Below are positions 14,983-27,390 of a stretch of DNA of 27,390 nucleotides, piece after piece. The stretch is from a virus. Under the pieces are notes generated by a model, which did no database searches, had not been told where the DNA came from, and saw nothing but the letters and a program-made list of their open reading frames with translations. Location of the stretch: positions 1-27,390 of IMG/VR virus record IMGVR_UViG_3300027969_003770; one strand, given 5' to 3'. The translations under genes were made by a program, and so were the position numbers. Position 1 is the first letter of the stretch; each line of letters starts with the position of its first letter.

Positions 14983-15288
14983 ATGCCAGCTGTAGCTAGA
15001 CAAGGCGATCCAACAACAACCGGACATGGGTGTGATTCCACTTCGACTATAACAGGACCAACCGGCACCAGTGCAAAGGTATATGTCAACGGTATAGCAG
15101 TTGAATGCCAGGGTGATCCAGTGGCCCCTCATACTATTCCGTCCGGACGAAGTTGTGTTTCTCATTCAGCAGTTATTAATGTTGGGTCAGGCACAGTCAA
15201 GGTTGGCGGGAAGTCACTGGCCAGAGTTGGAGACTCAACTGACGGTGGTGCTATCACTGCTGGTAGTCCTAACGTTTTTGCAGGATAA
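14983..15288 (+). CDS. PAAR-domain protein, tail-tip spike cap
   Basis: The entire 101 aa forms one PAAR repeat domain: VARQGDPTTTGHGC at the start, then GPTGTSAKVYVNGIAVECQG, PVAPHTIPSG, CVSHSAVINVGSGTVKVGGK, and a C-terminal GSPNVFAG. Conserved His and Cys residues at the expected zinc-site places (HGC, APH, CVSH) support a metal-bound cone. In T4 the equivalent gp5.4 sharpens the membrane-piercing spike on the baseplate hub, so this is most likely a virion tip protein. AAAGGG lies 6 bases before the ATG. Confidence 0.9.
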   Translation: MPAVARQGDPTTTGHGCDSTSTITGPTGTSAKVYVNGIAVECQGDPVAPHTIPSGRSCVSHSAVINVGSGTVKVGGKSLARVGDSTDGGAITAGSPNVFAG

Positions 15289-16219: not shown

Positions 16220-16288
16220 ATGAAAACGTATCAATTCGTTGTAGCAGTATTACTGATTACATTTGTTTTGGTACATGTTTTTATGTAA
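16220..16288 (+). CDS. Possible tiny membrane peptide, 22 aa
   Basis: Reads MKTYQFVVAVLLITFVLVHV and two more residues: a lone hydrophobic helix after a short polar start. It begins four bases after the cold-shock stop with no Shine-Dalgarno, so expression would rely on coupling. It ends just before the tmRNA acceptor piece. Single-helix phage peptides are common, but a chance frame cannot be excluded. Confidence 0.35.
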   Translation: MKTYQFVVAVLLITFVLVHVFM

Positions 16289-16634
16289 AGAATTGTTGTA
16301 GTCCTTGAATGGACAAAGTTGTAAAGTAAGGCATGTTGGACGGCGGTTCGATTCCGCCCAGGTCCACCAAAAGGGCACTACACCCCTCTTAATAATGGGC
16401 AACCTTGTAGTGCGTTTTTGATGGGCCTGACCAGGTTTCGACAGCGTGAGATAGGATAACGACTCAACACGTGGGGTCACGTAAAATACAAAAAACGTAA
16501 ATGCAAACGCAGATACATTCGACTTCAGCGCAATGAGCTTTACTGGAAACACCGTTTCCGGCAAAAGCAAAGTTGCCCTAGCTGCCTAAAAAACAGCGGT
16601 CCGGGGTAGGACTTACCTTGTAAAATAAACAACC
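16289..16634 (+). ncRNA. ssrA: Transfer-messenger RNA, circularly permuted (two-piece type)
   Basis: tmRNA rescues stalled ribosomes and tags the unfinished protein for proteolysis. Here the order is permuted. The tRNA-like 3' half comes first: T arm GGCGG-TTCGATT-CCGCC (16342-16358), acceptor strand CAGGTCC and ACCA (16359-16369). A 53-base spacer with an 8-bp hairpin (GCACTACA/TGTAGTGC) follows, then the 5' half starting GGGCCTG (16423-16429) and GGTTTCGACA. P1 pairs GGGCCTG with CAGGTCC (7 bp, one G-U); P2a pairs CAGCGTG (16442-16448) with CATGTTG (16332-16338); P2b pairs GGATAACGAC (16454-16463) with GTTGTAGTCC (16295-16304), one mismatch. An ACGTG/CACGT hairpin precedes the tag. The tag frame starts at GCA AAC (16503) and ends GCC CTA GCT GCC TAA (16589), i.e. 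ANADTFDF...KVALAA, 28 residues. An H-type pseudoknot follows (GTCC 16599 / GGAC 16609; GGTA 16605 / TACC 16614). The spacer would be cut out. The outer ends are estimates. Confidence 0.92.
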
Positions 16635-16663
16635 AAAAAAGACTACTTCGGTAGTCTTTTTTT
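16635..16663 (+). terminator. Intrinsic terminator of the tmRNA gene
   Basis: AAAAAAGACTAC / GTAGTCTTTTTT stem with a TTCG loop and a 7-T tail, directly after the pseudoknot region. Confidence 0.95.
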
Positions 16664-16710
16664 ATGGTTCAATAAAATTTTCAGCAAATATCTAAAAATT
16701 TTTAAGAAAT

Positions 16711-17481: not shown

Positions 17482-18342
17482 ATGCCATCTAGAATTTTGA
17501 TAATGGGGTTGCCCGGTAGCGGAAAAACCACTTTGGCCACAGCATTGAAATCGTATATTGAACAAAACGGAGATATGGAAAAGATAAATCCGGGCAGAAT
17601 TTTAGGTTATGAAGGCATCCCTGGGCCTGATTTTTTTAAAGTTCATGTTGACTGGTTCAATGCCGATGATGTTCGTAGAAAATTCAATGATTGGGATTTT
17701 TCAAAAGAAGGTAGAATTCGTCAGAGTCTGCGCATGTTGCAGTTTTCTCTAGAATGTTCGGGTGAATATGTCATTTGCGACTTTGTGGCTCCGCTGGTTG
17801 AGATGAGAAATAATTTTAAAGCAGACTGGACTATTTGGGTAGACACTATTCGTGAAGGCAGATACGCTGACACCAATGCAGCCTTTGTTGAACCAGAACA
17901 ATATGATTTCCGCGTCACTGAACAGAATGCAGAAAAATGGGCAGAGTTCATCGGTGAACACATTATTAACAATCGACGTCGCCCTACCTTTGACTGGAAG
18001 AAAGAAACAGTACAGATGTTGGGACGCTGGCAACCTTGGCACGAAGGCCATCGTGCGCTATTTGACCGTTTGATTGCACGTACAGGACAAGTGGTTATTC
18101 AAATACGTGATGTGCAAGGATGGCAAGGATCAAATCCTTTTGAAGTGGAAAAAGTCAAAGCATTTATCAAGCGTGACCTAGATCCTATCTATCAAGGACA
18201 GTACGAAATACAGGTAGTACCTAATATTGTACACATTGGTTGGGGACGTGGTGTAGGATATACACATGCTGAGGAAACATTTGACGAAGCAATCACAGAC
18301 ATTTCAGCCACGAAGATTCGTAAAGAGTTAGGATTAAAATGA
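17482..18342 (+). CDS. Bifunctional P-loop kinase (APS-kinase-like) / HxGH nucleotidyltransferase
   Basis: N-terminal half (~1-165): RILIMGLPGSGKTTLA is Walker A (Lys15), then DWFNADDVRRKFNDWDFSKE, which is the APS-kinase-like NADDVR substrate segment, and CDFVAPLVEMR. C-terminal half (~180-286): MLGRWQPWHEGHRALFDRL has the HxGH motif, QIRDVQGWQGSNPF follows, and ISATKIR (274-280) is the ISSTxxR motif of cytidylyl/adenylyl transferases (NMNAT-like). Such fusions occur in T4-like marine phages and some marine bacteria; true substrates are not known to me. AAAGGAAATATT precedes the ATG. It overlaps the DUF2061 gene by ATGA; DUF2061 often accompanies APS-kinase-like genes as I recall. Sulfate activation, nucleotide-cofactor or polynucleotide chemistry are all possible. 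Confidence 0.82.
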   Translation: MPSRILIMGLPGSGKTTLATALKSYIEQNGDMEKINPGRILGYEGIPGPDFFKVHVDWFNADDVRRKFNDWDFSKEGRIRQSLRMLQFSLECSGEYVICDFVAPLVEMRNNFKADWTIWVDTIREGRYADTNAAFVEPEQYDFRVTEQNAEKWAEFIGEHIINNRRRPTFDWKKETVQMLGRWQPWHEGHRALFDRLIARTGQVVIQIRDVQGWQGSNPFEVEKVKAFIKRDLDPIYQGQYEIQVVPNIVHIGWGRGVGYTHAEETFDEAITDISATKIRKELGLK

Positions 18343-18691: not shown

Positions 18692-19249
18692 ATGAAAACA
18701 GTTGGCGATAAGTTAGAAAAATTTGCAGTCACGGGTGTTAAGCCAGGACAACCAGAAGATGCATTCTTTGACATCACAGATGAGTCATTCCCAGGCAAGT
18801 GGAAAGTGATTGTTTATTATCCAAAAGATTTTACATTTGTATGCCCTACAGAGATTGTGGCCTATGACAAGTTGACAGGCGACTTTGCGGACCGTGATGC
18901 AGTATTACTCACAGGAAGCACAGACAATGAGTTCTGTAAAGTGGCATGGCAAAAGAGCCACAGTGATTTAATCAAGATCACACACAATCAATTTGCTGAC
19001 ACACAGCGTTATGATCCAAAAACATGTGATGACTTGAGCTTGATTGAACAACTAGGTGTGTTCTATGCTCCAGCAGGTGCCGCACTTCGCGCCACATTCA
19101 TTGTGGATCCAGCGAACGTTATCCAACATGTCACTGTGAACAATCTGAACGTTGGCCGTAGCCCAGAAGAAACTCTACGTGTATTAGATGCGCTACAAAC
19201 TGGCGAGCTGTGTGCATGTAATCGTACAGTTGGCGGCGAGACACTATAA
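18692..19249 (+). CDS. ahpC: Peroxiredoxin AhpC (AhpE/AhpD-partnered type)
   Basis: Reduces H2O2 and organic peroxides. Residues 47-55, FTFVCPTEI, contain the peroxidatic Cys51 in the PxxxTxxC region; STDNEFCKVAWQ and the C-terminal TGELCACNRTVGG (Cys174/176) give the resolving cysteines. The CxC-type C-terminus and the adjoining ahpD match the AhpC-AhpD systems best known from actinobacteria and many proteobacteria, where AhpD re-reduces AhpC. 185 aa is typical. AAGGAGAAGAT precedes the ATG. The stop overlaps the ahpD start (TAATG). A phage-borne copy is unusual; it may protect infected cells or feed another redox step. Confidence 0.95.
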   Translation: MKTVGDKLEKFAVTGVKPGQPEDAFFDITDESFPGKWKVIVYYPKDFTFVCPTEIVAYDKLTGDFADRDAVLLTGSTDNEFCKVAWQKSHSDLIKITHNQFADTQRYDPKTCDDLSLIEQLGVFYAPAGAALRATFIVDPANVIQHVTVNNLNVGRSPEETLRVLDALQTGELCACNRTVGGETL

Positions 19250-19758
19250 TGGCATTCATCGACGCTATCAAAGAAGCGTTGCCAGACTACGCCAAGGACA
19301 CCAAGTTAAACCTTGATGCTGTTCTTGTGCGTAGTACATTAGATGCTGATGTGGCCATGGGATGTGCTGTGGCTGCATTGGCTGCAACAGGCAACGGTAA
19401 GGTACTGGCTGTATTACTAGCTGATGCTCCTGTTTACGCAGACAGCGCAATGACAGCCGCAAGTATCATGGCACAAAACAACGTTTGGTATCCCTACGTT
19501 GAGATGGCCGAAGATCCTGCCCTAAAAGGATTGCCGGCACAACTACGTATGAATGCCATTGCGTCACACGGTGGAACTACCAAAGCAAACTTTGAAGCAT
19601 TTAGTTTGGCAGCAAGTATTGTGGGCAAGTGTCATTTCTGTGTTAAGGCACACTATGACACACTAAAGAACTCAGAAGGCTACACTGTGGAACAACTTCG
19701 TGACATTGGCCGTATTGCATCAGTTATGAACTCAGTTGCTAAGGTTTTGAATAGCTAA
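19249..19758 (+). CDS. ahpD: Alkyl hydroperoxide reductase AhpD (CxxC reductase)
   Basis: 169 aa, all-helical carboxymuconolactone-decarboxylase-like fold. SIVGKCHFCVKAHYDTLK holds the catalytic CxxC (Cys128/Cys131) and His135 of the E-x(n)-C-x-x-C-x-x-x-H proton-relay motif. AhpD uses lipoylated proteins (e.g. SucB) as electron source and recycles AhpC, so together they form a complete peroxide-reducing pair. It starts in the last base of the ahpC stop, hence tightly coupled. About 105 bases downstream comes the pqqA promoter region. Confidence 0.94.
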   Translation: MAFIDAIKEALPDYAKDTKLNLDAVLVRSTLDADVAMGCAVAALAATGNGKVLAVLLADAPVYADSAMTAASIMAQNNVWYPYVEMAEDPALKGLPAQLRMNAIASHGGTTKANFEAFSLAASIVGKCHFCVKAHYDTLKNSEGYTVEQLRDIGRIASVMNSVAKVLNS

Positions 19759-19782
19759 TTTCACGATAGTAGATTAATGATA

Positions 19783-19843
19783 TTCACTATGTGAAATAGA
19801 CAGTTTCTCCAGTATAATAGTGATACATACTAATGCAGTATGT
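19783..19843 (+). promoter_or_regulatory. pqqA promoter region with operator-like palindrome and leader hairpin
   Basis: TTCAC-TAT-GTGAA (19783-19795) is a perfect 5-bp palindrome covering the -35 position (TGTGAA) of a TATAAT at 19813-19818. Just past the expected transcript start lies ACATACT-AATGC-AGTATGT (19825-19843), a perfect 7-bp hairpin. The palindrome looks like a repressor or activator site; the hairpin may stabilise or regulate the short mRNA. Confidence 0.6.
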
Positions 19844-19863
19844 TTATTAAAAGGAGAACTACT

Positions 19864-19935
19864 ATGTGGACAACACCATCAGCAACAGAGATGCGTTATG
19901 GTTTCGAAATCACAATGTATGTGATGAACCGATAA
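19864..19935 (+). CDS. pqqA: PqqA, PQQ cofactor precursor peptide (23 aa)
   Basis: The 23-residue frame begins MWTTPSATEMRYGFE and ends ITMYVMNR. It matches PqqA, the ribosomal peptide from which pyrroloquinoline quinone is built: Trp near the N-terminus, Pro5, Arg11, Gly13-Phe14, the crosslinked pair Glu15 and Tyr19 in E-x-x-x-Y spacing (FEITMY), and a terminal N-R. Known PqqA peptides (e.g. Klebsiella, Acinetobacter) are 23-24 aa with the same GLEVTLY/GFEVTMY core. AAAAGGAGAACTACT gives a strong ribosome site 7 bases before the ATG. It has its own promoter and terminator. No pqqB, C, D or E lies in the window, so host enzymes would have to mature it. Chance similarity is unlikely given the number of matched positions. 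Confidence 0.88.
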   Translation: MWTTPSATEMRYGFEITMYVMNR

Positions 19936-19982
19936 GTGAAATGAAACGTCTTTTGGAAACAGGAGACTGTTATTGAGACTTG

Positions 19983-20003
19983 GCCCACTTCGGTGGGCTT
20001 TCT
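19983..20003 (+). terminator. Intrinsic terminator after pqqA
   Basis: GCCCAC-TTCG-GTGGGC hairpin followed by TTTCTC; the T tract is short and abuts the next -35 box. It ends the short pqqA transcript. Confidence 0.75.

Positions 20004-26841: not shown

Positions 26842-27390
<549 letters not shown>

Follow-up and report, generated by a model that had tools for sequence, protein, structure and literature searches.

Phage-encoded PqqA in viruses of methylotrophic Methylophilaceae: a probable supply of the PQQ precursor peptide to the host

In the viral DNA analysed here, a stretch of 27,390 nucleotides that is called the window below, a reading frame of only 23 codons resembles pqqA, the gene of the peptide from which PQQ is made. 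Such a locus raises two questions: whether so short a frame is a genuine PqqA gene of a phage, and what use a phage could make of the substrate peptide of a pathway that belongs to its host.

The first question can be answered rather directly. The translation of positions 19864-19932 is MWTTPSATEMRYGFEITMYVMNR, followed by the stop codon TAA at 19933-19935, and directly 5' of the frame stands AAAGGAGA. The peptide matches Pfam PF08042 (PqqA) with 35 bits (curated cut-off 21.1, E 1.4e-8) and the NCBIfam equivalog TIGR02107 with 34.3 bits (curated cut-off 20, E 1.5e-8), and since both scores exceed the cut-offs, the PqqA identity put forward in an earlier sequence-only reading of this DNA holds. 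A six-frame search of the whole record gave this single PqqA match (E 3.9e-9) and none in the 14 control genomes; the match is far above chance level. The residues named in that reading (Pro5, Arg11, Gly13-Phe14, Glu15-x3-Tyr19 and Asn-Arg at the end) are all present in the translation, and the ribosome site is likewise found ahead of the gene (Table 1). The gene is free-standing, with its own start, ribosome site and stop, and its 23 codons lie within the PqqA range of about 22-29 residues. Glu15 and Tyr19 correspond to Glu16 and Tyr20 in Methylorubrum numbering, the residues cross-linked by PqqE (PMC10906245). Judged by its sequence, the frame is a genuine phage-encoded PqqA.

The location is genuinely that of a phage as well: phage-type NrdA, endolysin, exonuclease and tail-spike families are found in the window, the PqqA peptide also occurs in sequenced phage isolates, and a terminase was found in the pqqA-bearing records G109, G143, G149 and G150. 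For the AhpD-like protein encoded next to pqqA, IMG/VR contains at least 598 relatives, and because some of these sit on contigs of 330-358 kb, the window probably represents one piece of a very large phage genome. No counterpart of this protein was found in the Methylophilaceae-like genomes searched, and it offers no clue to the host.

Some other features were recorded in their own right. The window has a permuted tmRNA of betaproteobacterial type (16277-16680, + strand; Rfam tmRNA_permuted and beta_tmRNA; ARAGORN tag ANADTFDFSAMSFTGNTVSGKSKVALAA), a PAAR-motif spike-tip-like protein (14983-15288, +) and a DnaK/Hsp70 gene, unusual for a phage, that runs past the window end (26854-27390, +). 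At 17482-18342 (+) a P-loop kinase-like N-terminus is fused to a region weakly matching a cytidylyltransferase profile, possibly a protein of nucleotide-cofactor metabolism. In the 356-kb pqqA-bearing record G143, the record behind locus L035, a terminase match (G143:C1:27217-28527) has four internal stops and may contain an intron, an inserted element or some other interruption.

Table 1. Features of the pqqA locus and its upstream neighbours, in window positions.
Feature	Position	Strand	Basis or remark
AhpC/TSA-family peroxiredoxin, upstream neighbour outside the pqqA unit	18692..19249	+	PF00578, 66 bits
AhpD-like carboxymuconolactone decarboxylase family protein, direct upstream neighbour	19249..19758	+	PF02627, 33.8 bits
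Upstream element AATGATATTCACTATG	19776..19791	+	Kept in pqqA-bearing relatives; single occurrence in window
Promoter-like site GTGAAA-16-TATAAT	19791..19818	+	Sequence; TATAAT enrichment in viral pqqA leaders
5'-UTR hairpin ACATACT-AATGC-AGTATGT	19825..19843	+	7-bp stem; at or beside predicted transcript start
Shine-Dalgarno AGGAG	19852..19856	+	Read from sequence
pqqA, 23-codon PQQ precursor peptide MWTTPSATEMRYGFEITMYVMNR and stop	19864..19935	+	PF08042, 35 bits; TIGR02107, 34.3 bits
Intrinsic terminator GGCCCACTTCGGTGGGCT, then T-rich tail	19982..19999	+	Sequence; hairpin recurs in relatives

Among cultured phages the gene follows the host. In a tblastn search of 50,697 phage records, every Methylophilaceae phage isolate record recovered, nine in number, had PqqA (P19250A, Venkman, MEP301, MEP401, MEP402 and four Melnitz phages); the other matches were an uncultured podovirus and two wrongly labelled bacterial contigs. 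Genuine isolates with any other named host gave no PqqA match among these records, and an Acinetobacter PqqA used as second query revealed no further phage in them. The record 'Acinetobacter phage MD-2021a' (L006) was rejected as phage evidence, being a bacterial contig with the whole pqqABCDE, molybdate transport and fimbrial genes. Isolate records mostly leave pqqA unannotated, and in the Melnitz phages (L005:14961-15056) the true pqqA, immediately ahead of tRNA-Leu, is covered by a hypothetical protein annotated on the opposite strand, which agrees with the earlier suspicion that the gene is overlooked in related phages as too short. Searching the publications that describe MEP301, MEP401/402, Venkman and Melnitz revealed no mention of viral PqqA, and PQQ figures in the Melnitz paper as a medium supplement only.

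Environmental viruses extend this picture considerably. Two degenerate peptide patterns each found at least 120 stretches in IMG/VR, at least 240 together, and nearly all of the matches listed prove to be PqqA genes that have both start codon and ribosome site. These patterns already require Glu and Tyr, and a further set of relatives was therefore collected by way of the adjacent ahpD-like gene. Intact pqqA was present in 16 of the best 80 of the at least 598 ahpD-relative loci, in some about 110 nt behind ahpD and in the others 0.6-3.3 kb from it, and all 16 copies, the most divergent peptide included, retain Glu15 and Tyr19, so that the spacing proposed earlier as a test of the PqqA assignment is conserved. 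The sole disrupted copy of the ahpD-anchored set lies in L194 (3120-3480, after ahpD), where the peptide MWTTPSATDMRFGHK ends after 15 residues, short of the Glu/Tyr pair, and the start, ribosome site and hairpin are still present; one further pqqA is cut by the contig end. Among 42 whole records of related phages, 17 have PqqA, in one case about 200 kb from ahpD, and 25, several of 330-357 kb among them, are without it. The gene is therefore either dispensable in this lineage or tied to the host, and its variable presence is as would be expected if it tracked the host.

When viral loci were clustered by single linkage on one common protein, nearly everything merged, and for that reason no firm count of lineages is given; two common proteins at ≥40% identity yielded 22 groups. 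Seven loci (L273, L274, L284, L294, L316, L350 and L366) represent a separate viral PqqA subtype. A third IMG/VR pattern led to two contigs with a Methylobacterium-type PqqA (MKWSAPIVQEVCVGMEVTSY...), L389 (a 266-kb record) and L391, each with a hairpin directly 5' of the pqqA ribosome site. Terminase tests were negative in both contigs, and the case for their viral nature is hence made by IMG/VR together with a few phage-family matches.

The leaders of the viral genes suggest that pqqA tends toward a self-contained unit, in which a TATAAT and a hairpin lie ahead of the ribosome site; the window adds a terminator. Nearly every viral copy has an AAGGAG-type site in front of it. An exact TATAAT at -70 to -25 was found in 64 of 207 viral pqqA leaders compared with 16 of 260 leaders of other genes on the same contigs; within 110 nt it occurs in 46 of 114 viral pqqA leaders, mostly 30-60 nt upstream, and in 1 of 36 host leaders. 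In the window the promoter-like site ends about 7 bases 5' of the hairpin. Hairpins of viral pqqA end mostly 15-25 nt 5' of the start codon and are more stable than their own shuffles by -2.5 kcal/mol, compared with -1.0 kcal/mol for other leaders; the sequences compared are not independent of each other, and the raw signal is partly common to other leaders of the same contigs, clear separation appearing only as excess over own shuffles. On its own the window hairpin is not significant (z only -1.2). Both of its arms are altered in relatives, for example to AAGTACT/AGTACTT, and the layout is kept (the covariation alignment leaves out the L013 row); between viral lineages the hairpin sequence varies. 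A GCCCACTTCGGTGGGC hairpin is also found 3' of pqqA in the relatives L174, L188 and L192.

For 114 distinct viral sequences we obtained a pN of 0.09 and a pS of 0.56, giving a pN/pS of 0.16; viral pqqA is under purifying selection, and its synonymous sites are highly diverged. Two common viral peptides are letter-identical to host ones, one in 22 viral and 5 host records and the other in 19 viral and 9 host records. These data bear on the idea that pqqA is a passive passenger, picked up by chance from scattered host genes and kept without benefit. With up to 12 dispersed copies in hosts such pick-up is easily pictured, and the shifting position of pqqA among relatives, its lack in many of them and the decayed copy of L194 would fit. 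The passenger reading is nevertheless very unlikely in view of such a pN/pS at so diverged synonymous sites, of the enrichment in promoters and hairpins and of the occurrence in all isolate phages across unrelated groups.

The hosts of the isolate phages are Methylophilaceae, methylotrophs with PQQ genes in their core genome. Members of this family have been reported to carry 3-12 copies of pqqA as against usually single copies of the remaining pqq genes (PMC4109929), and our counts reproduce this repetition of pqqA without the other pqq genes: ten pqqA genes were found in one Methylophilaceae MAG and 1-12 (median 5) in the 61 closest genomes around it, the streamlined 1.3-Mb genomes of that set having two or three. 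PqqE at curated level was detected in 65 of 100 genomes around a Methylophilaceae genome, mostly one PqqE each. The sequence-only reading had envisaged a host possessing PqqB-E, perhaps a methylotroph; this agrees with the hosts of the isolates and with these PqqE counts, and for the phage of the window itself we infer such a host. On the viral side, PqqB-E were not found in the flanks of viral pqqA, and PqqE was above the cut-off in none of the 21 whole phage records tested. The viral pattern, PqqA without PqqB-E, is thus the same as the host habit of repeated pqqA. PqqA may be what limits PQQ in Methylophilaceae hosts; against this, one study is reported to have obtained just a limited rise in PQQ on overexpression of pqqABCDE.

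A viral peptide that occupies PqqD/PqqE could also act as a decoy or brake, cutting host PQQ synthesis so that carbon is diverted or methanol oxidation stops. Binding alone would suffice for this, and PqqA binds PqqD tightly, with a Kd of 0.39 uM in Methylorubrum (PMC10906245). A decoy would, however, be expected to have lost or blocked the Glu/Tyr pair, whereas the cross-link residues are intact, many viral peptides equal host substrates and the hosts themselves have several pqqA copies, all of which makes this reading very improbable.

It is likely, in our judgement, that the phage contributes no more than the PQQ substrate peptide and leaves the chemistry to host PqqB-E, pqqA being an auxiliary metabolic gene. 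In the infected cell host PqqD/PqqE would join Glu15 to Tyr19 in the viral peptide, and a host protease, PqqB and PqqC would complete PQQ. Because each PQQ uses up one PqqA while the enzymes turn over, the peptide would be the one component needing resupply after takeover of host transcription. The cofactor would feed the XoxF/Mxa methanol dehydrogenases, so that electron flow and formaldehyde supply are sustained until lysis, and the 5' hairpin may make so short a transcript more stable or shield it. That viral pqqA is expressed, that host enzymes process its product and that a physiological benefit follows, we infer from sequence. Since pqqA is present in all cultured Methylophilaceae phages found and in more than 200 environmental virus fragments, these phages probably keep host methanol oxidation running in infection.

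A different role for a peptide modified by an rSAM enzyme, for example as a signal or superinfection factor, has some precedent in a PqqA-annotated peptide family that was co-expressed with defence systems in a metagenome study (PMC11118758), and pqqA repetition in Methylophilaceae may have a cause other than PQQ supply; this role is nonetheless highly unlikely for a viral sequence indistinguishable from host PqqA that occurs, among named phages, only in those of PQQ-dependent methylotrophs. That the transcript, a short independent unit bearing a 5' hairpin, acts as a small regulatory RNA is scarcely credible when codons vary under conserved amino acids and hairpins are unlike between lineages.

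Precursor supply by phages can be framed more broadly, as a near-universal trait, convergent in unrelated methylotroph phages, that relies on a dedicated cassette (promoter, 5' hairpin, ribosome site, pqqA, terminator) and extends beyond Methylophilaceae (L389, L391). This wider statement could equally well be right or wrong. OM43 and freshwater Methylophilaceae oxidise methanol, a notable step of the carbon cycle, and if nearly all of their phages supply the PQQ precursor, infection would keep this oxidation going in natural waters by means of a gene that escapes annotation pipelines. The finding also bears on pqqA repetition in Methylophilaceae, where peptide supply may limit PQQ, and the cultured phage-host pairs (Venkman, Melnitz, MEP301, MEP401/402) allow direct testing of the role.

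Viral PqqA is not entirely new. The sequence-only reading knew of no described phage pqqA, a claim that fails because viral PqqA and the idea of its function were already published: a Lake Baikal study describes PqqA in one predicted Methylophilaceae virus, population VP_266, and proposes enhancement of methanol oxidation as its role (Coutinho et al. 2020, PMC7678222). Also pqqA is listed among reservoir-sediment virus genes in another report (PMC13188868). The VP_266 case is like ours in having a viral PqqA, a predicted Methylophilaceae phage and the same proposal; it differs in being one metagenomic contig, reported alongside a viral methanol dehydrogenase, and the available text is without breadth, isolates, the precursor-only pattern, host copy number or leader architecture (PMC7678222). 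In the open-licence literature, the breadth, the presence in all isolates, the cassette and the match between precursor-only pattern and host copy number appear to be undescribed so far.

Chromosomal pqqA of Methylophilaceae encodes the same peptide, letter-identical in the two common variants, and hosts too have stand-alone copies apart from pqqBCDE; unlike the viral leaders, those of the host rarely have the exact TATAAT (1/36 as against 46/114). A functional parallel is cyanophage psbA, by which a phage encodes a short-lived component of the energy system of its host. As with psbA and similar auxiliary metabolic genes, viral pqqA would resupply a rapidly consumed part of host energy metabolism; there, however, the product is an enzyme or reaction-centre protein, whereas here it is a 23-residue peptide that would itself become the cofactor.
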